From Synechococcaceae cyanobacterium SM2_3_1 (lineage in GTDB: Bacteria; Cyanobacteriota; Cyanobacteriia; Thermostichales; Thermostichaceae), in NCBI GenBank assembly GCA_012030715.1, contig JAAUUJ010000001.1:1-64000 (forward strand): DNA of 64,000 bases, written 5' to 3'. Of the stretch, positions 4,329 to 52,005 are shown in pieces. Numbering within the stretch: the stretch's first letter is position 1; every line of letters begins with the position of its first letter. Under the pieces are notes generated by a model. It saw only the letters and a list, made by a program, of their open reading frames with translations. It was not told the DNA's origin and did not search any database. A program made the translations under genes and the position numbers.

Positions 4329-4512
4329 CGCCCAGCTCAACAAATTGGCTGTTCTAGGACGACTGATGAACTGCTGCACTAGGCGAGATCCCCCCCACTC
4401 GTCCTTCCTGATCGCTTTGCAGTCCTTCCAACCAGGTTGTGGTCATCCCGTTCTCAAGAACAGCCTCCTTCCCTCCTGCATCCCTCTACCTACCCCATTC
4501 GAGAGGATCATT

Positions 4513-5952
4513 ATGACAACTGTTGAAGACAAGAAAAAGCTGATTGACCAGGTCCTGGAGGTTTATCCAGACAAGGCAAAGAAAAACCGGACCAAGCATC
4601 TAAATGTCTATGAAGAAGGCATGGCGGATTGTGGTGTAAAGTCCAACATCAAGTCGGTTCCTGGATCCATGACCACCCGAGGCTGTGCCTACGCCGGATC
4701 CAAAGGGGTGGTGTGGGGACCAGTGAAAGACATGATCCACATCAGTCATGGTCCTGTGGGTTGTGGCTACTACTCCTGGTCTGGTCGCCGCAATTACTAC
4801 ATTGGCACTACAGGTGTGGACACCTTCGGCACCATGCAATTCACCTCTGACTTCCAGGAACGTGACATTGTTTTTGGTGGTGATAAGAAACTGGGGAAAT
4901 TGATCCATGAGCTGGAGGAACTCTTCCCCCTCAGCAATGGGATTTCTATTCAATCTGAATGCCCCATTGGCCTGATCGGAGATGACATTGAAGCGGTTGC
5001 CAGGAAAACCAGCAAGGAAATTAATAAGACGGTTGTCCCCGTCCGCTGTGAAGGATTCCGCGGTGTCTCGCAATCTCTGGGTCACCACATTGCCAATGAT
5101 GCCATCCGAGACTGGGTATTCCCCAAAGCTAAAAAGACCGCTGAGGAGCTGGGATTTCAGTCCACTCCTTACGATGTAGCCATCATCGGTGACTACAACA
5201 TTGCGGGAGACGCCTGGTCCAGCCGCATTCTTTTGGAAGAGATCGGCTTGCGGGTGATCGCCCAGTGGTCTGGTGACGGCACATTGAAGGAGATGGAACT
5301 GACTCCCCTGGTGAAGCTGAACCTGGTCCACTGTTATCGCTCCATGAACTATATTTCTCGCCACATGGAGGAGACCTATGGGATTCCCTGGATCGAGTAC
5401 AACTTCTTTGGTCCCACCCAGATCGCCCAATCCCTGCGTAATATTGCTTCCCATTTTGATGAAACCATCCAGGCCAAAGCCGAGGCGGTGATTGCCAAGT
5501 ACCAACCCCAGGCCGATGCTGTGATCAGCAAATTCAAGCCCCGTTTAGAAGGAAAGACCGTGGCCCTGATGGTAGGAGGCCTCCGGCCCCGCCACGTTGT
5601 CCCTGCTTTTGTTGATCTGGGGATGGAGCTGGTCAGCACTGGGTATGAGTTTGGTCATAACGATGACTACAAACGCACCGCCCATTATGTAGAAAACGGG
5701 ACCGTGATCTATGATGACGTTTCCGGCTATGAGTTTGAACAACTCATTAAAGAGCTGAAGCCTGATCTGGTCGCCGCTGGAATTAAAGAGAAATATGTCT
5801 TCCAGAAAATGGCTCTTCCTTTCCGTCAGATGCACTCCTGGGATTATTCCGGCCCGTATCACGGTTATGACGGCTTTGCCATCTTTGCTAGAGATATGGA
5901 TCTTTCCCTCAACAGTCCTACCTGGGATCTGATCAAAGCTCCCTGGAAATAG
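4513..5952 (+). CDS. nifD: NifD nitrogenase molybdenum-iron protein alpha chain
   Basis: About 479 residues. P-cluster cysteines appear in [18 protein letters not shown] and [11 protein letters not shown]. The FeMo-cofactor ligands are the cysteine in [10 protein letters not shown] and the histidine in [14 protein letters not shown] use ATG 4513 (ribosome site GAGAGGA) instead of the longer ORF-track start at 4345, because the upstream translation is not NifD-like and the chosen start gives the family N-terminus [11 protein letters not shown]. The gene is continuous, so it lacks the nifD excision element found in many heterocyst formers. Confidence 0.97.
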
Positions 5953-6102
5953 ATGCGCTTCAAGTTACTCAATGGGGATCCTGTCTTTGTAGCCCCCCAA
6001 CAGTAGAAGTAATCAATCAATCGCGATGATCGGTGATCAAGCATCAAGCGCTGTAACCTCAGGATCCCTTTGTCCTACCCCCATCCCTCAAGGAGAATTA
6101 CC

Positions 6103-7638
6103 ATGCCTCAGAATGTGGAGAATATAAAAGATCACGCAACGCTGTTCCATGAGCCGGAATATCAAACCCTATTCGCCAACAAGCGTGAGTTTGAGGGAAT
6201 GGCTGCTGCCGATGAGGTCGCCCGTGTTGCTGAGTGGACCAAAACCTGGGAATACCGTGAAAAGAACTTTGAACGTCAGGCTCTTACCGTCAACCCTGCC
6301 AAAGCGTGTCAGCCCTTAGGAGCGATTCTGGCTGCGGTAGGTTTTGAAGGTACGCTTCCCTTTGTTCACGGATCTCAGGGCTGTGTGGCTTACTTCCGCA
6401 CCCACTTGACCCGCCACTTCAAAGAACCCTTCTCTGCTGTGTCTTCCTCCATGACTGAAGATGCTGCTGTCTTCGGTGGGTTAAAAAACATGTTGGATGG
6501 CTTGGAAAACAGCTATGCCCTCTACAATCCCAAGATGATCGCAGTCTGCACCACCTGCATGGCGGAGGTGATCGGGGATGACCTGTATTCCTTCATCTCC
6601 AATGCCAAAACCGAAGGCAGGATCCCTACAGAGTTACCTGTGCCCTTTGCTCACACCCCCAGTTTTGTCGGATCTCATGTGACAGGCTATGACAACATGC
6701 TCAAGGGGATCCTGCAAAATCTGACTGCGGGGAAGAAAGTTGACAACACCAATGGCAAAGTTAATGTCATCCCAGGATTTGATACCTACATGGGCAACTT
6801 GCGGGAGATCAAGCGGATCTTCTCCTTGTTTGATGTCCCCTTGACGTTGCTCGCAGACAACTCCGACTATCTGGATTCTCCCAATGATGGCGAGTTCCGC
6901 ATGTATCAGGGAGGCACTCCCTTAGAGGCCGCTGCAGATTCCATCAACGCTGAGGCCACCTTCTCACTTCAACGCTACACCACTGTCAAAACCCGAGCCT
7001 TTATTGAAGAGACCTGGGAACAGTCAACCCCCGTCTGCCGACCTGTAGGAATTCGGGGCACGGATGCCTTCCTGATGGAACTGTCGGAACTGACGGGCAA
7101 GCCCATCCCACGCCAGCTGGAAATCGAGCGAGGACGTGCAGTTGATGCCCTCACCGACTCCCAGGCCTGGATCCACGGCAAGCGTGTAGCTCTGTATGGT
7201 GATCCAGATCTGGTCATGGGGCTGTTGAGCTTCCTGTTAGAAGTGGGAGCCGAGCCAGTGCATATCGTGGTGACCAACAGTAACTCCGAGTTTGAAGCCG
7301 AAGCTAAAGAGTTACTGGAATCCAGTCCCTACGGTCGTGAAGCCACAGTTTGGGGTGGCAAAGATCTATGGCACATGCGCTCCTTGCTGTTTACCGAGCC
7401 CGTAGATCTGTTGATCGGCAACTCTTATGGGAAATACCTCTGGCGAGACACCCATACCCCGCTGGTGCGGATTGGCTATCCTATTTTTGATCGCCACCAT
7501 CTACACCGTTACTCCATTTATGGTTATGAAGGCACGATCAACCTGCTCAACTGGATTGTCAATACGCTTCTGGATGAGTTGGACCGCAATACGATCGTTC
7601 CATCGAAGACGGATATCTCCTACGATTTGATTCGCTAG
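6103..7638 (+). CDS. nifK: NifK nitrogenase molybdenum-iron protein beta chain
   Basis: A 511-residue beta subunit of dinitrogenase that shares the P-cluster with NifD. Cysteine motifs include [22 protein letters not shown] and [12 protein letters not shown]. The start ATG 6103 follows a strong ribosome site AAGGAG; the ORF track runs 33 bases further upstream. It lies 150 bases after nifD. Unusually, the next gene is nifV. The nifE gene that generally follows nifK in cyanobacteria is not in this window. Confidence 0.97.
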
Positions 7639-7719
7639 GAATGAATTTCTTCAGGCGATTGATCCACTTCCATGATTGGTCGCCTCCATCAACTCCTTTT
7701 GCAGAGTGAGGAGCTACTC

Positions 7720-8850
7720 ATGTCCATGATCCGGATTAACGACACCACGCTCAGGGATGGTGAGCAGGCTGCAGGTGTGGCTTTTCAACTACAGGAAAAG
7801 GTCGCCATCGCAACTCTACTGGATGAAATGGGTGTACCAGAAATTGAAGTCGGTATCCCAGCTATGGGAGACGTGGAGATCGAAGCGATTCAGGCGATCC
7901 GCAGTCGGGGACTCAAGGCCGATCTACTGGGATGGAATCGTGCTGTGCGCAGGGATCTGGAAGCCTCTTTACAGGCTGGACTGCAGCGGGTCCATATCTC
8001 TGTGCCCGTGTCTGCGATTCAGATCAGCACCAAGTTTAAAGGGGACAGGCTGCGAATGATGCAGCAATTGCAGGAAAGCATTGGGTTTGCTATCGATCAA
8101 GGGTTGTGGGTCTCTGTCGGAGGGGAGGACGCTTCTCGTGCAGATCCAGGCTTTCTTGAGGAAGTTGCTCTCCTGGCCCAAGACCTGGGGGCCTCTCGGT
8201 TTCGCTTTTGCGACACGGTTGGAGTTTTAGATCCTTTCAGGACATTTGAACAGGTCAGCCGTTTGGTGCAGGCACTTAAGATTCCCGTAGAGATGCACAC
8301 CCATGATGATTTGGGGATGGCTACTGCAAATGCAATGGCTGGATTGCGTGCTGGCGCAACCTCTGTCAACACTACGGTTAATGGGTTAGGGGAACGAGCC
8401 GGGAATGCTCCCCTTGAGGAAATCATCATGGCCTTAAAACAAATTGAAGGCATTGATCTGGGAATACATACTCACTGTTTACGGGAACTCTCCCTCAAAG
8501 TCATCGAGGCTTCAGGGAGTCCTCTCCCCCCCTGGAAGGCAGTAGTGGGTGACAACAGCTTTGCCCATGAGTCAGGCATCCATACAGCTGGGGTGCTGCA
8601 AGACCCAAGGACTTACGAAGCCTTTGCTCCAGAAGAAGTGGGAGGCAGACGCCAATTCGTTATCGGCAAGCATTCCGGTCGTCATCTGTTAAAGGCAGTG
8701 TTGCAAGACAAGTCACCTCAACTGAATTCAGAAGAGCACATGGCGATCCTTCAGGAAGTGCGCCGAGTGGCAATGCAACAGAAACGAGGGATCACTGTAG
8801 AGGAACTGACCCAGTTAATCAATAAAGAGGAGTTAAGTTATGCGAGTTGA
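7720..8850 (+). CDS. nifV: NifV homocitrate synthase
   Basis: A 376-residue enzyme of the alpha-isopropylmalate/homocitrate synthase family that makes homocitrate, the organic ligand of FeMo-co, from acetyl-CoA and 2-oxoglutarate. Seen motifs are NDTTLRDGEQAAGVAF (metal site and catalytic arginine), MHTHDDLGMATAN (HxH metal ligands) and GDNSFAHESGIHTAG. ATG 7720 is chosen because GAGGAG sits 5 bases upstream. The length is family-typical and lacks the LeuA regulatory domain, supporting NifV over leucine biosynthesis. Its last codons overlap a small ORF that leads into nifZ. Confidence 0.94.
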   Translation: MSMIRINDTTLRDGEQAAGVAFQLQEKVAIATLLDEMGVPEIEVGIPAMGDVEIEAIQAIRSRGLKADLLGWNRAVRRDLEASLQAGLQRVHISVPVSAIQISTKFKGDRLRMMQQLQESIGFAIDQGLWVSVGGEDASRADPGFLEEVALLAQDLGASRFRFCDTVGVLDPFRTFEQVSRLVQALKIPVEMHTHDDLGMATANAMAGLRAGATSVNTTVNGLGERAGNAPLEEIIMALKQIEGIDLGIHTHCLRELSLKVIEASGSPLPPWKAVVGDNSFAHESGIHTAGVLQDPRTYEAFAPEEVGGRRQFVIGKHSGRHLLKAVLQDKSPQLNSEEHMAILQEVRRVAMQQKRGITVEELTQLINKEELSYAS

Positions 8851-15890: not shown

Positions 15891-16027
15891 CAGAGATCAG
15901 AAGGGGTAACGTGCTGACAGAATAGCAGCTCCTGGCAGAGTCGGATCTCCTGCAAATGAACCAGCCAACGGCAGCCCTTGACCCTCCTCAAGTAAAATGT
16001 TGTTCTACAACCATTCAAAACCGACCC

Positions 16028-16770
16028 ATGTCGAACCGTTGGGAAATCATCCGCCGCCGCAAGGCCAAGGTTGACTCCTCAGTCAATGCCGTCTATACCC
16101 GTCACTCCCGCGCCATCATGGTGGCGCCCGCAATGGGGTTCCCGATCCGGAGGCCAACTTTACCCTGCGCACTGCGATTGAGAAAGCCCGCGTTGCTGGG
16201 ATGCCCAGTGACAATATCGAGCGAGCGATCAAACGGGGAGCAGGGCTGCTGGGGAGTCAGGATGCGCTCGAATCCTTCCGTTATGAGGGCTACGGTCCTG
16301 GCGGGATCGCCGTGCTTCTGGAGATCTTGACCGATAATCGCAACCGCACCGCTGCCGATGTGCGCGAAGCCTTCAGCAAGTCTGGGGGAAACCTGGGGGA
16401 AACGGGCTGTGTGAGCTGGATGTTTGATCAGAAGGGGGTTGTGCAGCTGCAAGTCGTCACGGATGAAGAGTCCCTCCTCCTGGATGTGGCGGAAGCCGGG
16501 GGAGACGATATGGCCACTCAGGGCGAAGTGGTGGAGGTGTATTGCGACTACACACTGCTGGAATCGGTGACCACGGCACTCAAAGCGGCCAACTATGAGG
16601 TGCTGGAAGCCTCGCTGCGCTGGATCCCCTCCACGGTGGTGACGGTGCAGGAAGCGGATATGGCCAAGCAGGTGCTGAAATTAATGGATCGTCTGGATGC
16701 TCTGGATGATGTCCAGAATGTTTTTGCCAACTTTGAGATCGATGATGCCTTGCTCAGTGCCATTGCCTGA
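16028..16770 (+). CDS. yebC: YebC/PmpR (TACO1) family protein, one frameshift
   Basis: The two parts are MSNRWEIIRRRKAKVD... (from ATG 16028) and MPSDNIERAIKRGAG... The frame breaks near GTGGCGCCC 16121-16129; one added G restores VAARNGVPDPEANFTLRTAIEKARVAGMP, which is classic YebC. Downstream motifs are YGPGGIAVLLEILTDN and GGNLGETGCVSWMF. Family members act in translation of polyproline stretches or as DNA-binding regulators. The N-terminus lacks the usual AGHSKW start, so this is either a divergent paralog of the YeeN type or a variant form. Confidence 0.9.
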
Positions 16771-17426: not shown

Positions 17427-17917
17427 GTTCATCTTTGCTGCCCGTACCGATGGAACACCGATCTATATCAGCCCTGAGAAATCCTCTGAATTCAGTGGAA
17501 TCTTGTATAGCCTCAATCGATTTTTGATAAGATTAGATCAGGCTCACGGTCAATCAATCTTGACCCATATTCAAGAATAAACAGCTTGATCTCTTCTTCA
17601 TTGTAAATGCAATAAGTATCTTAATTGCCTTGTGGCATAGAATCGCTAAACTCGTTTTCTTCGTTTATGCGCCAGATAATGATCTGATCAGGTGCAAACC
17701 TGAGTAACTTAACTGTGTTGAATTGCGTGCCCCGGCTAGAGAGTTTGCAGGTGCTAAAGCAGTCTCAATGGGAGAGTGTAAGTTGTCTGGGCTAGCGATC
17801 CTTGGGATCAAGAAGATTGTGAGTTCTTAGCTGCCCGCTTTGTCCTCCTGGCTACAATGGCCTCTCCGCGAGGCTTGGGCGTATAGTAAAGGGGCCACCA
17901 CTCACCTGCGGATCGCC
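17427..17917. other. Gene-poor stretch of about 490 bp
   Basis: It lies between the Nudix gene and the NERD-helicase gene. A 64-codon ORF (17386-17580) overlaps the Nudix 3' end but has no recognisable family and no ribosome site. A small hairpin GATCC-TTG-GGATC lies at 17797-17809. No RNA gene was recognised. Confidence 0.5.
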
Positions 17918-19815
17918 ATGGCTGAAATGATCCCTGACAAGTTGCCGAGACGGGCTTCTGCCGGAGAAAAGAAGCTGTTCTCAGTTCTGCAACATCTGCC
18001 CGAAGAAGACATTGTCTACTACGAATCTCTGGTGGATGATCGCTACCCTGACTTTTTGCTGATCTGTCCGCAACTGGGCCTGCTGGTGATCGAGGTCAAG
18101 GGATGGCGATTGGGGGATATCCTGGCGGCGGATGCCCAAACGATCAAAGTGCGGGAGTTTGGGAAAGAGGTGGGTCATCCGCATCCCTTTATGCAGGCAC
18201 GGGACTACTGGATGTCGCTGGTGAGCCACTGCCAGGAGGATGTGCTGGGAAAGCGGTTGTTGCAGAAGGATGATCATGGCAACGCCCTATTTTTGTTTCC
18301 CTTTGGTCATGTGGTGGTCTTCCCCTATATTGCGTCTGAGCAGCTGCAGGAGCATCCCCAAATGGGTCCTGTGTTTCCTCTGCAACGGGTGGTGACCCGC
18401 GATCAGTTGGAACAGTGGCAGGAGGATGAATTTACGCCTGACTTGCTCACCGCCGCCATCAAGACCTACTTTGATCCCTTCTGGGAGATCAACCCGCTGA
18501 CCTTAATGCAGACCAAGATCCTGCGAGCTATTGCTCACCCAGAAATCCGGATCCAGGGGTATGGAAGTGGGCCGCCCTCAGATCAGACCCTGGAAGCTCA
18601 GGAAGGGGATGAAGATCTGGTGGATCTGAAGATCCTGGATTTGAAGCAGGAACAAAATGCCCGCCATATCGGTTCAGGACACCGCATCATCTATGGAGTC
18701 GCCGGATCGGGGAAAACAATTCTGCTGGTGGCACGGGCCAAAATTCTGAGTAAACAGGATTCCCAAACTCGCATTCTGGTTCTCTGCTATAACGTCACCC
18801 TGTCTGCCTATCTGAAATCGGTGCTGGCAGACTGTACCAATAATGTGTTTGTCTTTCACTTCGACGGGTGGGCCAAGCACAATTCCACGTCACGCAAGCG
18901 GGAAGAATCGGACGAAGCCCTGGGTGAACGTCTCCTAACAGCCCTTCAGAATGGGCAAGCCTCGGATAGCCGTCGCTATGATGCGGTGCTGGTGGATGAA
19001 GCTCAGGACTTTGAACCCGTCTGGTTTAAGTGTGTTCTGGAGGCGATGCAGGAACCAGAGGATGGGGATCTGGTGATCGTCGGAGATGGCAACCAGAGTC
19101 TGCACCGCCGCAACAAGATCAACTGGAAACAACTGGGGATCAAGGCCCAGGGGCGGACCATTTCTGCCAAGTTTGATCTGGATAAAAACTACCGCAATAC
19201 CCGTCAGATCATAGAACTGGCCAGTGTCTTTGCCTCGACCGATCCTGAAGACCATGAGCCGGAGGAAAGCATCCGGTCTTTGCAGGTGGATCCAGAAAAA
19301 TGCAAGCGATCTGGTCCGCAACCCCGACTGGTGCGAGCTGCGAATAAAACGGAGGAATGTAAGCGGGTGCTGCGGATCATTCAGGATCTGACCCAGGGGC
19401 GCTGGTTTGGGCAAACGGTTAAGCCCCTGCAGCCGGAGCAGATCGCCATCTTTTATCCCCGTCTCAGCCGCCGCAATGAAGATATGTTCCGTGCCTTTCT
19501 TAAAAAATGAACGAGGCCATTGCTCCAGTCACCTGGCTGACGGATAAAGGCAATCCGCAGTCGAAAACAAAAGTTGCCGAGAAATCGATCAAAGTTCAAA
19601 CGATTCATTCGGCTAAAGGATTGCAGTACAAGGCGGTGATTCTGTTATGGGGAGATGATCTGCCTTCACCCTTTGAGGATGCGGATGAACAGGTGGAGCG
19701 ACAACTTTTTTATGTGGCACTGACGCGACCTGAAGATTATCTGGCGATCAGTTATTCTGGATCCTCTAGCTTTATTCAGGAGATTGAACAGTCTGGTAAA
19801 GCCGAGGTGGAATGA
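17918..19815 (+). CDS. NERD nuclease-related domain plus UvrD-like helicase, one frameshift
   Basis: From ATG 17918 (MAEMIPDKLPRRAS). The N-terminal about 120 residues are a NERD domain with PDFLLICPQLGLLVIEVKGW, the restriction-endonuclease-like D-ExK core. The superfamily 1 helicase part has Walker A YGVAGSGKTILL, Walker B LVDEAQDFEP, motif HSAKGLQYKAVIL and the final FYVALTRPEDYL. The frame breaks at six A residues (19502-19507); one extra A gives LKKMNEAIAPVTWL. It probably acts in DNA repair or processing. No defence genes accompany it. Confidence 0.86.
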
Positions 19816-20285: not shown

Positions 20286-23200
20286 ATGCCCGTGTCGTCA
20301 ATGATCAAGCCCCTTGAGTGCATCTGGGTGGGTCCCCAGGATCCCGTGCAAAAGGTTGCTGAGCAGTTACAGCAGCTTCAGCAGTCCTGGGCTCTGGTGG
20401 GTTCTTCTGTTCAGCCGTTGGGAATCGTGACGGTCCAGGATTTATTGAGTGCAATTCTGTCACCAGGGTCGCCTTCTGTGATCACGGTGGAACAGGTGAT
20501 GTCTGGCATGCCTGCAATGGTACCTCTGTCTGAATGTCAGGATCCTGAGACAGTGCTGCAGCGATGGGAGGAAGGCCCTCTACCGTTTGTACCTGTGCAA
20601 AATCAGAGGGGTGAGGTGGTGGGGGTGGTCACTCAGGATCATCTCCAGAAAGCTGTGATCAAGCAATATCGTCAGGTGACGCAGAGCACCGAATTCTATT
20701 TCCAGCGGTTTTACAAAGCTTTTCAGCAATCTTTTCAACTGATCACTATTCTCACTCCTGAGGGCACCGTCCTGGAGGATAATCAGACCGCACTGGAGTT
20801 TTGTCAACTACATTTGACTGATGTCATTGGTCTCCCCTTTTGGGAGCTGCCCTGCTGGAATTTTGCTCCCGAGGTGCAGCGGTCTCTACAATCAGCAATC
20901 GCTGCTGCCGCCAAAGGAAAGACCATCCATCAGGAAGCTACAATTCAAGCCCCTGATCGGTCAGAGATCACCATCGATTTTTCTCTCAAGCCACTCTGCA
21001 ATGCCGAGGGAAAAATTGAATACTTACTGGCAGAAGGGCACAATATTTCTCAACTTAAAAGTGTGGAGCAGCAGTTGCACCTTAAAACAGGGCAGGAACA
21101 ATCCCTAAACAAGGTGGTGCAAGCGATCCGGAGTTCTCTAGATCTGGATCAGATCTTCATCCTGGCAGCGAATGAGATCAGTCAGTTGCTGCAGGTTGAA
21201 GTTAATATTGTTCAATACATGCCAGAGGAACAGGGCTGGCGGCATCGAATCTGCCGGAAGCTAGATCAGGTGGTTCTGGAAAAACTTGATCTTCTCATCC
21301 CTGATGCGGATAATCCCTTTGCTGCTCGGCTGAAACAAAAACAGATGGTAGTGGTTGACAGGACAGAAACCATTACGGATCCGGTGAATACCTCTCTGAA
21401 AGAAGATTTTCCAGGGGCCTGGCTATTAATTCCGATTGCGGTTGCAGATCAAGTATGGGGAAGTCTTTCGTTAGCTCGAAATCATACCTGCCACTGGACG
21501 GAAACCGACATTGATCTGGGCCAACGGGTTGCCGAGCACCTGGGGATGGCGATCCATCAGGCACAGTTGTATCAGCAGCGGTTGCAGGAACTGCTGGCAC
21601 GGCAGCGGGTAGAGCTGACCTTAAAAGAGTCGGAAATGCGGTTGCAGCAGATCCTTGATAGTGCTCAAGCCACCATTGTGGGCTTTCAGGTGTTTGCCGA
21701 TGGCCAGTGGAATTACCTTTGCTACCTCTCAGGGATCAGAACAGGTTTATGGCTTTAGTCCCGAGGAGTTTATTGCAGATAAATATCTCTGGGATACCCG
21801 TGTTCCTCCTGAAGATAGACTGCAAGCATCCATTCGCCACCGTTTAGAGGATATCTGGGCAGAACGCCCTGTCAAGACTGTGCATCGTTTTCTTCACAAA
21901 GATAACTCCCTGCGCTGGATCCACTGCACAATGGTTCCCCGCCGCAATGAGGCTCAACACTGCTGGTATGTAACGGCTGTAGGTGTCGATATCACTGAAC
22001 AAAAGCTGTTGGAAGAAAATCTGCGCCGCTATGAACGCATTGTCTCGGCCACGGCTGATGGCATCTCACTCGTGGACAATTCCTATACTTACCAACTCAT
22101 CAACGAGACCTATCTGTGCTGGAACCTGAAGCACCGCGATCAAATTGTGGGTCATACCGTTGCAGACTTGTTGGGGGAAGAACCCTTCACACGCTTTGTG
22201 AAGCCTAATTTTGATCGCTGTCTACAAGGGGAAGTCGTCACCTATGAAGAATGGTTTGAGTTTCCTGGAGTCGGTCAAAAGTTTGTCAGCGCAACCTATA
22301 GTCCCTACCGTGATCCAAAGGGTACCATCTCCGGAATCGTCGCCTCCACTCGCGATCTAACCTCGCTAAAACGCACTGAACAAGCTCTATTTGAATCACA
22401 ACTGCAATATCTGCATTTAGTCAATGCGGTTCAGGGAATCGTTTGGGAAGCGGATCCCGTTACCTTGCAATTCACCTTTGTCAGTGCCCAAGCAGAGAAG
22501 ATTTTAGGCTATCCTGTCAGCCAGTGGTTAGAGGAAAACTTCTGGATTGATCATATTCATCCCGAAGATCGAGAGGCAGCCATTGCCAATTGTCAAACAT
22601 GCATCCAAGCACTTGAGCCTCACTCCTTTGAGTACCGCATGATCAGTGCCGATGGAAAGGAAGTATGGCTCTACGATACCGTCAACATTACATTTGAAGA
22701 AAGTAAACCAGGTAAGCTTCAGGGGCTGATGGTTGACATTACCGACCGAAAGCTAGCCGATGCATCCCTCAGAGACTACCAGCAAATGATCCAGCAGGTG
22801 GCAGACTCCACTCTCGCTATTCTCTACATCTACGATTTGCTTGAAAACCGCAATGTTTTTGTCAATTCTCAGATCGAGGCGGTGTTGGGCTACTCCCCTG
22901 CGGAGATTCAGGTGATCGGCAGCTCTCTGATGCCCAGCTTGATTCACCCCGATGACTTACCCCAGGCCCTGACCCTTCAAGATCGCTGTTGTCAAGCAAC
23001 CACCGATGAAGTCCTCCCGATTGAATATCGCATGCGGCATAAAGATGGCAGCTACCGCTGGCTACTCAGCCGTGATCGTGTGATTAAACGCACAGCCAAC
23101 GGGGATCCCTGGCAGATCCTGGGAGTCGCTACCGATATTACCCACCAGAAACAGTTGCAAGACCAACTCGCTGCACAGTTAGAGCGGGAACATCTACTGG

Positions 23201-25610
23201 CTAGTATTTCTCAGCGGATCCGTCAGACTCTGGATTTGAGCGAGATCTTGCTGACGGCAGTGCATGAAGTCCGGCAGCTACTCAAAACAGAGCGGGTGGT
23301 CCTTTATCGGCTCGAGACGGACGGAACAGGCACCATTGTAGCGGAGTCAGTGGAGCCAGGAACCATGCCCTTACTGGGTATGATCATTGAAGATTCCTGC
23401 TTCCGGAACCACTGGTATTTGGCCTACCAACAAGGCCGGATCAGTCAAATTAATGATATTGAAACCGCAGCCATTCAAGCCTGTCATGGGGAGTTATTAC
23501 GCCGTTGTCAGGTGCGAGCCAATCTGGTGGTGCCGATTCTGCAGGGAGAACGTCTCTGGGGATTGCTAATTGCCCACCATTGTAGTGAACCCAAAGTGTG
23601 GCAACCCTGGACGGCAAAACTGATGCAACGTATTGCCAGCCAGCTGGGGATCGCGATCCAACAGGCAGAGATTTACAGCCAGCTGCAGCAAAGTGAAAGG
23701 TACAACCGAGCCCTGGTGGATGCTATCCCTGATCTCCTGCTACGGGTTAAACGAGATGGGACTCGCACGTTCATTAAATTCGGATCGGATTACGGAGATC
23801 AGGTGAAACTCTACCATCAGAAGACATGACCCTAGGAACCTCGATTCTGGATACCTTACCTTCCCAACTGGCTCAGCAACGCATGGCAGCTATCAAACAG
23901 GCCCTGGACACCTGTCAAATTAAGGTTTACGAACAGGTGCTCAGCTTTCAGGATCGGCACCAATTCGAGGAAGTACGGGTGATTCCTTACAATCCCGATG
24001 AGGTTCTGATCATTGTCCGCGACATTACGGAGCGAAAACTGGTCGAAGCTCAAATGGAAGCGGCCCGTCAGCAGGCGGAAGCGGCCAATACGGCTAAGAG
24101 TCAGTTCTTGGCCACCATGAGCCATGAGATCCGGACCCCCCTGAATGCGGTCCTGGGGATGATCAGCCTGCTGGAACAAAGTTCCTTAACCGTTGAGCAG
24201 CGACAGCTGGTGAGGACGATTCGCAACGGTGGGGAAGTATTGCTGGCGATCATCACTGATCTGCTGGACTTTTCACGCATCGAAGCCGGACGTCTGGAAC
24301 TGAGCTCAGAACCTCTGGAGGTGCGGCCTACTGTAGAATCGGTGCTCGCACTCTTTGCAGCCAAGCTGGCGGAGAAACAATTACAGCTATCCCTGCAGGT
24401 GGATCCTCAGGTTCCCCTCTGGATCCGGGGCGATGCCCAACGGCTGCAACAGATCCTGATCAACCTGCTCAGTAATGCTCTCAAGTTTACCGAGCGAGGA
24501 TCGATCACGGTAACTTTGAGCGCAAAACCATTGGCGTCCCAACCCCAAACTTGTGAGATCTGTTTTCAGGTACAGGATACGGGAGTGGGGATTGCTCCTG
24601 ACAAAATCGATCTCATTTTTCAGCCGTTTCAGCAGGGAGACAGTTCCATCAGTCGTCGCTATGGCGGCACAGGTCTGGGGCTCTCCATCTGTCGGCACCT
24701 GTGTGAATTGATGGGGGGAATCATCACTTTTGAAAGCCAACAGGGCCTGGGATCAACTTTCTCCTTGACGGTGCCCGCTGAGATCGTTCCTCCTCCCCGA
24801 TCGCCTGAACTGACTGCAGCACATCTAGCCTCAGCGGTGCCTTCTCCCTCTTCGCTGTTAGCACTGCGCCTCCCCCTGCAGATCCTGGTGGTGGAAGATA
24901 ATCCTGTGAATCAGACGGTGGCAGAGGCTCTGCTGCGTTGCCTGGGATACCAGCCCACTCAGGTGAGTCATGGGGTCGAAGCCCTGACGGCACTCGAACA
25001 ACACAACTATGATGTGGTTTTCATGGATGTGGAAATGCCGGAGATGGATGGTCTGACCGCGACCCGTCTGATCCGCCACCATTTTGGGCATGCTGTTTAC
25101 ATCATTGGCATGAGTGCGGCAGCCTTTCCCGAATCGCGGCAACGGGCCCTAGAGTCAGGCATGAATGATTACCTCACCAAGCCGATTCAGTTGCATACCC
25201 TGTCCGCAGCATTGCAGCAAAGCACGACATCGATCACTGATATCCTTGCCGGAGAACCTGCCCTCACCCTTGATCCTCAGGTGCTGATCACCTTAAAAAC
25301 TGTTCTGGGGGCGCAGGCTGCCGAGGTGATCCCGCGGATGTTGCAGGCATTTGTGCGGGATACAACCCAACGGTTGCAGGACATGGCTCAGGCCTGTGCC
25401 CAGGAGGATTGGGAGCGGCTGCGCAAACTAGCTCACGGGCTCAAGGGGACCAGCAGTCAGCTAGGGGCTCAAAAACTCTACAAGCTGGCTCAGGATCTGG
25501 AAGCGGGATGTCGTATTCCTCTGCCCGATCAACACCTGCAAACGGTCCTGCAGCAGATCCACAGCGAATTCACCCTTGTAATCCAGGCCCTTGAGCAGGA
25601 GATCCCTTGA
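20286..25610 (+). CDS. Very large hybrid histidine kinase (CBS-PAS-GAF-PASn-CBCR GAF-HisKA-HATPase-REC-Hpt), two frameshifts
   Basis: Three ORFs join into one roughly 1,775-residue protein. The breaks are near 21716 (remove one base: NYFATSQGSEQVYG) and near 23822 (add one G: HQKDMTLGTS). The order is: a CBS pair; a PAS; a GAF; about four PAS units; a GAF with DSCF and ACHGELL, a predicted bilin-binding cyanobacteriochrome; a last PAS; HisKA with MSHEIRTPLNAVLGM; HATPase with NLLSNALKF and GGTGLGLSI; REC with phospho-acceptor in FMDVEMPEMDG; and Hpt with LAHGLKGTSSQLG. It is a cytoplasmic multi-input sensor with a built-in phosphorelay, one base ahead of the next kinase gene. Confidence 0.88.
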
Positions 25611-27292
25611 ATGACACTCACCCCACCTCTGGCTGCCCCTCTGATTCTGGTTGCCGATGATGATCCGCTGCTGGCGGAAGTCGTAGGGCCAATCCTCAGT
25701 CAAGAGGGATATCGCACCTCGATTGCCCGCAATGGGGCTGAATGTCTGCGCAAGGTGGAGGAAGAACTTCCCCAACTGATCCTGCTGGATGCAGTCATGC
25801 CGGATCCTGATGGGTTTGACTGTTGCCGTCAGATCCGCGCTCTGGAGGCAGGATCCACGATTCCCATTCTGATGATCACTCACCTGGAAGATAACGAGTC
25901 TGTGAACCGCGCCTTTGAGGCAGGGGCCACCGATTACATCCAGAAGCCCTTGCACTGGGGGGTTTTGAAACAACGGATCCGACGTCTCCTCCAGGCCCAC
26001 CGTGACTGGCAGGAAAAACACAGCTGATTCAGGAACTGGATTTTCAGGTGAAAGTGCGGAATACTGAATTGCGAACGGCCATAGAGTTTGAACAACTCCT
26101 GCGGGTGATTACCGATAAAGTCCGCAGCAGCCTGCAGGAAGAAGAAGTGTTGGCCACTGCCGTACAAGAGCTTACTCAGGGTCTGGGACTGGGCTATTGC
26201 AAGGTGGCGATGCCGAACTCAGATGGCCAAACCTACCAGATTGGTTATGAACATCAGGGGTATCTCAACTTTTTATTGCCCAATGACAACCTGACTCTAA
26301 ATCTAGAGATCTGGCCTCAACTGCAACGGGGAGAAACCATTCTCTACTCTCGCCCATTGTCAGACAGACAAAAGATCACCGTGCTGTGTTGCCCCCTGCT
26401 CGATAATGCAGAGTTCCTGGGCTTTCTGAGTTTAATTCGCTCCCCAGAGCACAGCTTCAATCATCTGGAGGTGCGGCTGGCAGAACAGGTCGCCAATCAA
26501 TGCATAATCGGGATCAGGCAGTCCCGCCTCCACCAGGCCACGCTGCAGCAGGTTTCCCAGCTGGCGGAGTTAAACCAGCTCAAAGATGAATTTGTGCATC
26601 TGGTATCCCATGAACTGCGCACCCCCCTCACCAATATGAAAATGGCCCTGAAAATGCTGGAGACAGTTGATTACAACGAACGGCAACAACGCTATTTCCG
26701 CATTCTGCAGTCTGAATGGCAACGGGAATTGGAACTGGTCAATGATCTTCTGGATCTGCAGTCACTGGAGTCCGGCACCCATCACCTGCATCTGGATACG
26801 ATTTCCCTGAACGAATGGATTCAGCCTTTCCTGGAGCCCTTCCTTATCCGGTTTCAAGAACGACAACAGGTTCTGCGCTTATCTCTACCTGCTCAAGAGT
26901 TCCACTTCACCACCGATGTCAAATTGTTGAGTCGTATCCTGGCAGAATTGTTGAACAATGCCTGTAAATACACCCCAAAAGGGGAAACCGTGAACCTGAT
27001 CATTATGCCCAACTTCCCCTATGTCCAGATTCAAGTCAGCAACAGTGGGGTTGAGATCCCTGCCGAGCATCTGCCGCGCATTTTTGATAAGTTTTACCGG
27101 ATCACTCAGCTGGATCGGGATCATCAAGGCGGAACCGGGTTAGGCTTAGCCCTGGTAAAAACAGTGGTGGATCATTTACAGGGTCAACTGCAGGTGGAAA
27201 GCAACCAGAGAATCACAACCTTTTCAATTGTGTTGCCTTCCTTGTACTACTCAGAAGTCCAGACCTGCCCTGCTACGGCAAGCTGCGCCTAG
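25611..27292 (+). CDS. REC-GAF-histidine kinase, one frameshift
   Basis: The receiver starts VADDDPLLAEVVG, has its aspartate in ILLDAVMPDPDG and ends at KPLHWGVLKQRI. The frame then breaks in AGGAAAAACAC (26012-26020). One added A gives HRDWQEKTQLIQELDFQVK, leading to a GAF domain, HisKA (VSHELRTPLTNMKM) and HATPase (LLNNACKYTPKGE, GGTGLGLALVK). The GAF lacks the bilin-binding Cys-His pair. Response-regulator-first kinases of this design commonly take a phosphate from a partner kinase; the large kinase directly upstream is the obvious candidate. Confidence 0.85.
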
Positions 27293-43126: not shown

Positions 43127-44246
43127 TTAACCTATAGCCCTTCTCAACTCCCTTAATCTTTCCATCAGCTGTGACATAAAGCGGAGGTTATGAATGGTGG
43201 CTAATCTGGCAGCGAGATGATCATTGAGACGAAATAAGTGCCGGATGTAAGCCAGAGTGTAATGCCTGCAGCAAAGGGCATCGCAGTAGGGGGAAATGGG
43301 CTGGCTGGCCTTGATATATTTTTCATCCTGGACATAAACATACTGAAAGAAGGGATCCCCAGTGAAGTCCAGATCTTGGGGAGGGGTGTGAAAACGGTAG
43401 AGCCTTCCCTGACGGGCATCGCGGGTGGGTAACGAACAATCAAACAGGTCATAACCCAGGTGAGAACAGGTCACCACACTGGCAGGGTGGCCCACCCCAA
43501 GGGCGTGCAGGGGAAACTGGCGGGGGATCAACTGCCGCGTAAACTCCAGCATCTCTGTTAACAACTGTCCCTGCTGATCCAGTGGCCAGCCCCCAAAGCC
43601 GTATCCATCAAAGCCGATCTCCAGCAGTGCCTCGGCACAGGTACGTCTCAACGCTGAGGATCCTCCCCCCTGGACAATCCCAAATAGCAAAGGACGCTGC
43701 TGGGAATCCAGCTGTTTTTGATTCAACAAACGCAGAAATTCAGCCTTACATCGCTTTCCCCATTCCACCGTTCGCCGCACCGACTCCTCCTGATTGGTAT
43801 CCGTATCCTCCGCGTGGGTGCAATCGTCCAGGCAAAAAAGGATGTCACTGCCATAACTCATTTGCAGCTGAATCGTCTTTTCCGGCGTTAGCAAAATCTT
43901 GCGCTGCTGATCTTTTTCAGGACGAAACAAAAGCCCCCGTTGACTGATGCTGCCGTACTTCGGATTTTGTCGGATCAGTGAATAGGCTTGAAATCCACCG
44001 GAATCTGTGGCAATCACCCCCTCCCAGCCTGCCAGTCGGTGCAATCCTCCCAGGGCTTGAATTGTGGAGGTATCCAGGTTTTTGCATGACGTAGTGAAAG
44101 GTGTTCATGACCAACGCCTGAATCCCACACTGGTGTAGATCCTGACTGTCCAGGGACCGCACCACTCCCCAGGTGGCATCCGGCAAAAAGGTCGGAAAAG
44201 TCAGGTGACCGTGGGGAAGCCCCAGACTTAAGCGTGGCGAAGACAT
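43127..44246 (-). CDS. Divergent tRNA-guanine transglycosylase-like protein, one frameshift
   Basis: From ATG 44246 (MSSPRLSLGLPHG). TGT motifs present: ATDSGGFQAYS with the substrate-binding aspartate, GIVQGG, and FDCSLPTRDARQGRLY with the nucleophile aspartate. The frame breaks at five Ts on the plus strand (44079-44083); removing one A on the coding strand gives MNTFHYVMQNLDTSTIQALGGLHRLAGW. The zinc region reads YCDALCCRHYTLAYIRHLF, where the second of the canonical CxCxxC cysteines is alanine. FGGWPLD replaces the usual IGGLSVGE. It may be a paralog with another substrate. It ends an operon starting with the GHKL and STAS genes. Confidence 0.82.
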
Positions 44247-44279
44247 AGGAGGGTGTTGATTTACATTGAGAGTCAAAGA

Positions 44280-48434: not shown

Positions 48435-51400
48435 ATGTATGTCAAGCAGCTGGAGCTGACCCGGTTTAAGTCGTTTGGTGGTAGCACGACGATCCCGTTA
48501 CTACCAGGGTTTACTGTCGTATCAGGTCCCAATGGATCGGGGAAATCCAACATTCTAGATGCCATTTTGTTTGCTCTCGGCCTCTCCAGTTCCCGAGGTA
48601 TGCGAGCAGAGAAACTCCTGGATCTGGTGCATTCCGGCAGCTTAGAGCGGGGCCAGAAGCGTGTGGAGACCTGGGTGTCTGTTACCTTTGCTCTGGAATC
48701 TATACCTCCCGAATTTCTGGAAAGCTTTCAAGATCACTACCCGGATCAGGCCCTGCCCACGGAATGGAAGGTGACCCGACGCCTGCGGGTGAACACCCAG
48801 TCTGCCAATGGGGATGACCCCAGTTACACCAGCACCTTTTACATCAATGATGTTCCCTGCAGCTTAACAGAGCTCCATGAACAGCTGGAGGCGATGCATG
48901 TCTTCCCCAACGGCTATAACGTCGTCCTGCAGGGGGATGTGACCGGCATTATTTCCATGAATGCCAGGGAGCGACGGCAGATCATTGACGAACTGGCAGG
49001 GGTGGCCACTTTTGATCGCAAAATTCACCAGGCCAACAACAAGCTGGAAGTGGTGCGGGAGCAGATCGAGCGTTTTCGCCTGATTGAGCAGGAGCTACAG
49101 GGCAATGCCGAACGCCTCCTGAAAGAATCCCAGAAGGCTCTGGATTACCAGCGTTTGCGCCAGGATCTGGAACAAATGGAGGTGATCCAGACTCTGCTGA
49201 CCTACCGACACCTGCAGCAACAGACCCAACAGGCTCAGACGGAGATCGAGGCCAGCCAGGCCCAACAGCAAAAAATGACCTCAGAGCTGGAGGCCCTCAC
49301 CCAGCAGTTGAAACAGGATGAACAGCACCTGACAGAATTGCAAAGCCGGATCCATGCCCTGGGCGAAGATGAATATCTGCGCATGCAGACCCAGATGGTC
49401 ACCTGGCAGGCTCAGCTCCAGCAACACCAGCAACAACAGCAATCCTGGCAGCAGGACCAGAAAACTCTGGAACAGCAAATTGGGCAAAGTCAGCAGCAGC
49501 AACAGGTTCTGGAAAGCGAGTACGAGCAACTCCAGCACCAAGAGCAGGTTCTGGAACAGCAGCAACAGACCCACCAGCTGCGACAGCAACAGCAGGAAGC
49601 AGACCTGGCTCGCAGCCGCGAACAATTGCAACTCCTGGCCCAATCTTCGGATGCCTGGGTTAAGCAACAGCGCTACCTCAGTCGGCAGCTGGAGGAAACC
49701 CGCTCCGAGTTAACACCATTGCAACAGGAACAGGTGCGGCTACAGGAGCGATCCCAGCAGTTAGGTCGGCAGCTGCAGGACGGCCAGCAGGAACACCAGC
49801 GGCTGCAGGATTGGATCCAAACCCAGAGTGCCCTCACCCCCGACCTGGAGCAAGCTGCTACCCAGGCTCAACAGCAAGCCCAGGATCTAGCCCTGATTCC
49901 CTGTGTGCCTTGGCAGTCTCAGTGTGAACTGGATCAGGCCACGGCTCAGCGGCTGCAAAGTGAGCAGTATGCCAAGCAACGGGAGCTGGACAAGCTGGAA
50001 ACCCGTCGTCAGGTTCTGCAGGATACTCAGGGCACGCGAGCAACCCAGGCCCTACTGGCGGCAGATCTGCCCGGGTTTGCGGGCTGGTGGCTCAGTTGGG
50101 CTCGGTGGATTCCCAGTACCAGGTGGCCCTAGAAATTGCTGCGGGCAGTCGGCTTTCGTTTGTGGTGGTGGAGGATGATACCGTTGCCGCTAGTGCCATC
50201 AATTTTTTGAAACTGGAAAAAGCGGGTCGGGCCACATTTTTACCTTTAAATAAGCTCAAATCCAGCCGTCCGCTCGGGCCTTTGCAATTATCGGGCCTGG
50301 TGGACTATGCCCTCCGACTGGTCAAGTTTGATCCCCGTTATCGAGATGTGTTTGCCTTTGTTCTGGGCAGCACGCTCGTGTTTGAGTCCCTGGATCAGGC
50401 CCGCCAGTACCACGGTCGCCACCGGATCGTCACCCTGGAGGGGGAGCTTCTGGAAACCTCAGGGGCCATGACCGGGGGCAGTGCCCAAAACCGCTCCAGT
50501 CTTCAGTTCGGCAGTCAGGATAATGCGGCTGTGGAAGGACTCAAGCGACGGTTAGACGATCTGGAAAATCTGCTCGCCTCCCTCACCCCGCGGCTAAAGG
50601 CAGCTCAGGCCCGTGAAAAGCATCTGGGTCAGGAGTTAATGCAGGCCCAGCAAAAAGCGCTGCAGACGCAGCAGTCTCTGGATCAACACACCCACCAGCT
50701 CCAGGCTGAGCAGGGTCGCTGGGCTCAACAACAAGAGCAACTGCAGCATTGGCAAGCGGAAACCCAGGCAACAGAGCACCGATTGCAACACCTGGAAGAA
50801 GAGACTACACCGCTGGCAGAACGCATGGCCGATCTGACCAGTAAGCTGCAGCAGCTGGAGCACTCCCCCGTTAACCAGCACTGGCAACAGGCCCAGGCGG
50901 CCATCCAGCAACAGGAGACTCAACAGGCCCAACTGTCGGCCCACAGTCGCGAGCTAGAACAGCAACTTCAGGCCGGGCTCACAGCACAACAACTCAACCG
51001 TGCTCGCCTGCAGCAACACCAGGAACGAGTTCAGGAATGGCAGCACCGGATACAGCAGCTACAAGCGCAGCAACAGCAGACCCAGATCCAGGAACAGGAA
51101 CTCCACCAGCAGATGGCCTCTCTGCGGCAGGAGATGCAAGCAGCGGAATCCCGTCTGGCCGATCTCCGACAACAGCGAGACCAGCAGGACTTTAACCTTC
51201 GTACCCAGCAGCAACAGATTCAACGGCTGGAATGGGAGCGCTATCATGCCCACTCGCAAGCGGAAGAAAAGAGCCAGCTGCTTCAGCAACTCCAGGCACA
51301 GATCCAGGATCTGCAAACTCAACTGCCGGAAGTTCTACCGGAGGTAGCTGCCGATCTGACCCTGGACACACTTCAGCGACAACGACGCCGTCTGGAGGAG

Positions 51401-52005
51401 AAGCTGCGTGCCCTCGAACCTGTGAATATGCTGGCGATCACCGAGTATGAAGCAATGCAGGGGCGCCTCGAGGAACTGACGCAGAAACTGGAAACACTTC
51501 AGGAAGAACGGATGGAGTTGCTCCTGCGGATCGAGAACTTTGCCACCCTGCGCCGCCAGGCGTTTATGGATGCCTTTTATGCGGTGGATCAGCACTTTCG
51601 CACGATCTTTTCGCAACTGTCCGATGGCGATGGACATCTGGATTTAGAAAACAGCGAGGATCCCTTGGCGGGAGGTCTAAATTTGGTGGCCCATCCCAAA
51701 GGAAAACCTGTGCGCCGTCTCAGTTCCATGTCGGGGGGAGAAAAATCCCTGACGGCCCTGAGCTTTATTTTTGCTCTGCAGCGCTATCGCCCCTCTAGCT
51801 TCTACGCCTTTGATGAAGTGGACATGTTTCTGGATGGGGCGAATGTCGAGCGACTGGCACGCATGATCCAGCAGCAGGCCCAGCAGGCCCAGTTTATTGT
51901 GGTGAGTTTGCGGCGACCAATGATTGAGAAGGCAGATCGCACCCTGGGGGTAACCCAGGCCCGTGGCGCCATACCCAGGTGATTGGCGTGAAAAATCGCT
52001 CCTAG
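48435..52005 (+). CDS. smc: SMC chromosome segregation ATPase, two frameshifts
   Basis: The Walker A is VSGPNGSGKSNILDAILFALG at residues about 31-51. Two very glutamine-rich coiled-coil arms flank the hinge (LVDYALRLVKFDPRYRDVFAFVLG). The C-terminal head has LSSMSGGEKSLTALSFIFALQ and FYAFDEVDMFLDGAN. The first break is at GGG 50073-50075 (add one G: LPGVCGLVAQLGSV). The second is near 51969 (add one C: ARGAHTQVIGVKNRS), extending to TAG 52005. Intact SMC would be about 1,190 residues. Its 3' end meets hslO on the other strand. Confidence 0.95.

Follow-up and report, generated by a model that had tools for sequence, protein, structure and literature searches.

The locus at 20286-25610 of the window (the whole 64-kb stretch of DNA analyzed here) raises the question of whether its second GAF domain, GAF2, is a light-sensing cyanobacteriochrome (CBCR) and what kind of protein carries it. 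The first-pass annotation had read the interval as one kinase, had assigned GAF2 to the DXCF-type CBCRs and had regarded the combination of parts as an unusual integrator. In a single frame, the middle part of the interval contains stops, and three ORFs cover it, with frame changes in two PAS domains. One continuous kinase ORF running from CBS to Hpt was thus rejected; the first-pass annotation had joined the frames silently. The features of the locus are as follows:

20286-21758, plus strand: ORF1, 490 aa, with CBS, PAS_4, GAF1 and the start of PAS 2
about 20316-20660, plus strand: CBS region of ORF1
20724-21056, plus strand: PAS_4 of ORF1
21141-21554, plus strand: GAF1 of ORF1, no bilin motifs
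21712-21728, plus strand: frame change in PAS 2, frame 0 to frame 1, both frames continuing one PAS domain
21655-23829, plus strand: ORF2, 724 aa, with the rest of PAS 2, PAS 3 to PAS 5, GAF2 and the start of PAS 6
22048-22374, plus strand: PAS 3 of ORF2
22408-22728, plus strand: PAS 4 of ORF2
22786-23142, plus strand: PAS 5 of ORF2
23799-23812, plus strand: frame change in PAS 6, frame 1 to frame 0
23826-25610, plus strand: ORF3, 594 aa, with the rest of PAS 6, HisKA, HATPase_c, REC and Hpt
23832-24038, plus strand: rest of PAS 6 in ORF3
24093-24290, plus strand: HisKA of ORF3
24429-24782, plus strand: HATPase_c of ORF3
24882-25214, plus strand: REC of ORF3
25335-25568, plus strand: Hpt of ORF3

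If the frame changes were real, the locus would be a decaying pseudogene or would encode three separate proteins, and the sensor would be uncoupled from the kinase. The sequence as it stands does consist of three ORFs, with the start ATG of ORF3 overlapping the stop codon of ORF2 (ATGA), whereas both breaks fall within PAS domains, one base suffices at each, and neither the CBCR pocket nor any phosphorelay residue is damaged (the kinase His, the ATP-binding motifs, the REC Asp and the Hpt His were found present by eye). Moreover, four other genes of the window, and perhaps a REC-GAF-kinase described below, are likewise broken:

15956-16330 and 16201-16770: yebC, split over two frames
17840-19510 and 19507-19815: NERD-UvrD helicase, split over two frames
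43917-44276 and 43127-44044, minus strand: tgt, split over two frames
48435-50132 and 50087-51982: smc, split over two frames and cut at the hinge

Since the loss of all of them, and of smc, tgt and yebC in particular, is implausible in a living cell, indel errors of the draft assembly are the likeliest cause of the broken frames within the 64 kb, a reading that is inferred rather than proven. Real frame changes in the kinase locus are therefore judged quite improbable; those at 21712-21728 and 23799-23812 are probable one-base indel errors, and the kinase gene most likely encodes a single polypeptide of about 1770 residues, its frame having been broken by such errors in the assembly. Elsewhere in the window, a homocitrate-synthase-like gene and two genes of the nitrogenase component 1 type are grouped at 4345-8850 and probably belong to a nitrogen-fixation cluster.

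GAF2 is contained, complete and unbroken, in ORF2, where three features define it:

23173-23694, plus strand: GAF2, assigned as a DXCF-type CBCR photosensory domain on profile, PDB, fold and tree evidence
23392-23403, plus strand: DSCF motif of GAF2, its Cys codon (23398-23400) corresponding to TePixJ C494, the second cysteine
23482-23487, plus strand: Cys-His of GAF2, its Cys codon (23482-23484) corresponding to TePixJ C522, the canonical bilin cysteine, and its His to H523

The domain matched PF01590 at 23233-23658 with 84.5 bits (80.9 bits when searched in ORF2), and it is the second GAF of the locus, GAF1 carrying neither bilin motif. Both motifs, the Cys-His being surrounded by Ala-Cys-His-Gly-Glu-Leu-Leu, lie in this second GAF at the positions that the first-pass annotation had given for them. 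The TePixJ GAF of Thermosynechococcus (PDB 3vv4, 4glq, 2m7u) is the prototype of DXCF blue/green CBCRs, and alignment with its chain confirmed the claimed identity of cysteine spacing, 28 residues in GAF2 as between Cys494 and Cys522 of TePixJ, and placed C104-H105 of GAF2 on C522-H523, in the helix of the canonical cysteine. In an alignment of relatives 41 to 57% identical, both cysteines occupy columns homologous to C494 and C522, so that a chance match is not at issue. GAF2 also keeps D492, F495, H498, W499, R507 and N535 of TePixJ, while Q526 is replaced by Leu. In TePixJ, the B-ring propionate is anchored by H498 and W499, and the walls of the pocket include D492, Q526 and N535 (PMC6955287). 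No PHY domain was matched in any of the three kinase ORFs, which makes GAF2 a GAF without PHY and not a phytochrome.

Sequence and structure searches placed GAF2 among the CBCRs. A phmmer search of the PDB recovered the dual-sensor histidine kinase PPHK (6oap, E value of 5.6e-47) and TePixJ (3vv4, E value of 6e-34), ranking CBCRs first and phytochromes behind, and a 45-sequence profile gave the same ranking. An AlphaFold2 model of the domain had a mean pLDDT of 90.2 and a pTM of 0.87, and nearly all of its top 30 Foldseek matches were CBCR domains, the leading ones comprising PPHK, TePixJ, the SyB-Cph1 GAF, miRFP670nano, AnPixJ and other bilin GAFs. The NCBIfam search matched no specific CBCR model; its matches to the Tlr1612-family c-di-GMP phosphodiesterase lay far below the cut-off, and this candidate was rejected.

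The tree evidence does not hinge on the cysteines themselves. In a tree of 73 rows built with both motif regions masked, whose bootstrap had not settled completely, leaving support within the large clade approximate, GAF2 fell into a 59-row clade (99/96) with TePixJ, PPHK, NpR3784/miRFP670nano and RcaE and outside the red/green CBCR clade, and non-bilin GAFs, among them GAF1 from its own protein, were set apart from it at 100/100. Its nearest group (98/82) comprised a GAF paralogue from its own genome together with those of G005, G006 and G007, three CBS-PAS-CBCR-GAF-histidine kinases from the family of the window organism; a quick tree of 82 rows likewise put GAF2 beside CBS-kinase GAFs from that family. 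The extended red/green (XRG) class was considered and rejected, as GAF2 in the alignment lacks the WXDXXL insert that defines red/green CBCRs (PMC11284453), the DXCF cysteine is present, and the domain lies outside the red/green clade. A profile search, which the first-pass annotation had named as able to place the domain outside the CBCRs, thus grouped GAF2 with them, and the assignment of GAF2 as a DXCF-type CBCR is strongly supported.

Comparison with characterized proteins showed what GAF2 shares with each of them. TePixJ is 41% identical to GAF2 and, besides the two motifs and their spacing, has in common with it the H498, W499, R507 and N535 positions and the lack of PHY; however, TePixJ is a chemotaxis receptor, whereas the host of GAF2 is a hybrid histidine kinase, and TePixJ differs at Q526 and is not the nearest relative of GAF2 in the tree. 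The best match in both sequence and fold is PPHK (PDB 6oap, 6oaq, 6ob8; about 48% identity), which likewise has a CBCR GAF with CH within a histidine kinase but carries DQYF and has no second cysteine. NpR3784, the parent of miRFP670nano, and RcaE belong to the same broad clade as GAF2, but their aligned chains also have no second cysteine at the DXCF position.

As for pigment, the genome of the window organism encodes a heme oxygenase and PcyA (NF002760, 287.5 bits versus a cut-off of 206), and phycocyanobilin should therefore be available. GAFs are numerous in cyanobacterial kinases, and many of the 39 GAF matches in this genome are without bilin motifs, so GAF2 could conceivably be CBCR-like and yet bind no bilin or not photoswitch, serving as a linker or binding another ligand. 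We consider this very improbable, since GAF2 keeps both cysteines, the His, the Asp, the Trp and the propionate contacts, and PcyA is present in the genome. GAF2 is thus predicted to be a bilin-binding, light-switching domain. Two further GAFs of this genome were observed. A paralogous one (L048/L155; first 1455 bases of contig C182, minus strand) has retained DTCF, but Tyr-His (DPYH) stands in place of the canonical Cys-His, through either loss of the canonical cysteine or a sequencing error, and this paralogue without the canonical Cys suggests that domains of the GAF2 subgroup can decay. The other (L050; contig C73:18255-18683) is a further DXCF..CH GAF, which the quick tree places as the sister of TePixJ (SH-aLRT of 83).

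In DXCF CBCRs, the canonical cysteine binds ring A, while in the dark a bond from the second cysteine to C10 produces a blue-absorbing state; isomerization of phycocyanobilin to phycoviolobilin is frequent, and light breaks the C10 bond to give a green-type state (PMC11284453, PMC4067208). By analogy, the cysteine at 23482-23484 of GAF2 would attach phycocyanobilin at ring A, the DSCF cysteine at 23398-23400 would add to C10 in the dark to yield blue absorption, and the domain may isomerize its pigment to phycoviolobilin. Light would then flip the C15 double bond and break the C10 bond, producing a longer-wavelength, green-type state.

Nevertheless, the motif does not fix the color of GAF2, because certain proteins of the DXCF type retain some phycocyanobilin or make phycoviolobilin even when the second cysteine is missing. 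The domain might bind bilin and have a photocycle that is not blue/green, by keeping phycocyanobilin, by using another color pair or by not engaging the second cysteine reversibly. Both phycocyanobilin and phycoviolobilin are present in the DXCF protein Tlr0924 (PMC4067208), AM1_6305g1 forms phycoviolobilin without its second cysteine (PMC11284453), and the Leu of GAF2 at the Q526 position points the same way. On the other hand, the DXCFRxHWxxAYxQGRI block of GAF2 is closer to TePixJ than are the blocks of most relatives, and HW at the H498-W499 place occurs in only 5 of 184 aligned rows, with the window domain counted twice. Such a photocycle is the less likely outcome, though one of appreciable probability. 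All considered, GAF2 is very probably a DXCF CBCR of a single hybrid kinase whose frame was broken by indels, a predicted bilin photoswitch feeding a His-REC-Hpt relay. The signal would reach the HisKA/HATPase core from GAF2 by way of the next PAS and a linker, and phosphate would move from the His to the REC, the Hpt and then a partner, the simplest candidate for which is the receiver encoded next to the kinase:

25611-26027, plus strand: receiver (REC) protein, its first base directly following the kinase stop codon
26048-27292, plus strand: GAF-HisKA-HATPase kinase, homologous to the C-terminal halves of kinases of the G005, G006 and G007 type

This receiver would precede the second GAF-kinase or be fused to it: a frame change in a run of A near 26010 may have divided one REC-GAF-kinase into the two ORFs. 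The product of 26048-27292 shares 49 to 52% identity with the C-terminal halves of CBS-PAS-CBCR-GAF-kinases from the family of the window organism, and the match starts directly after their CBCR GAF. Thus, what forms the output half behind the CBCR in these relatives is a neighboring gene in the window, with the HK-REC-Hpt relay in between. No synteny with the loci of the family members was seen in the 14-kb surrounds.

We then considered how common the architecture is. Relatives' GAFs were gathered by similarity to GAF2 and not by their cysteines, and among the 184 aligned rows, 90 have a Cys at the DXCF position together with CH, and 30 more have CY instead. Scanning genome contigs with the whole 724-aa ORF2 found nothing, and the scan with the GAF alignment as the query gave 80 loci. 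In 40 full related CBCR-type ORFs, histidine kinase domains are frequent (33/40), as is REC (27/40), with Hpt in 12 and CBS in 3. Five intact ORFs combine CBS, PAS, a DXCF..CH GAF and a kinase, the Pfam CBS match being above the cut-off in every one; three come from the family of the window organism, and more distant cyanobacteria also carry such ORFs. The kinases of G005, G006 and G007 hold all these parts in one intact ORF, but without the REC-Hpt tail and with fewer PAS domains than the window kinase. A published table also lists kinases with CBS domains from thermophilic cyanobacteria (PMC9953108); literature searches found nothing besides a review for CBCRs with CBS domains and no paper on the CBS-CBCR kinase of JA-3-3Ab. 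The earlier description as an unusual integrator is hence not upheld: a light sensor arranged with CBS, PAS and a kinase is found elsewhere too, and only this particular sum of parts is the locus's own.

A more far-reaching reading is that the operon is a two-kinase integrator of light and energy, in which a CBS (adenylate) sensor, six PAS domains, a dual-Cys CBCR and an HK-REC-Hpt relay, united in a single polypeptide, would pass phosphate to the neighboring REC-GAF-kinase and so drive in trans the split-off output half of an ancestral CBS-PAS-CBCR-kinase; we regard this as unlikely. For this assembly, the reading of large genes must allow for frame breaks. GAF2 leaves existing knowledge of CBCRs unchanged, and what the locus adds is a DXCF CBCR beside a CBS domain and a phosphorelay, a useful test case for how light and energy state may be sensed together.
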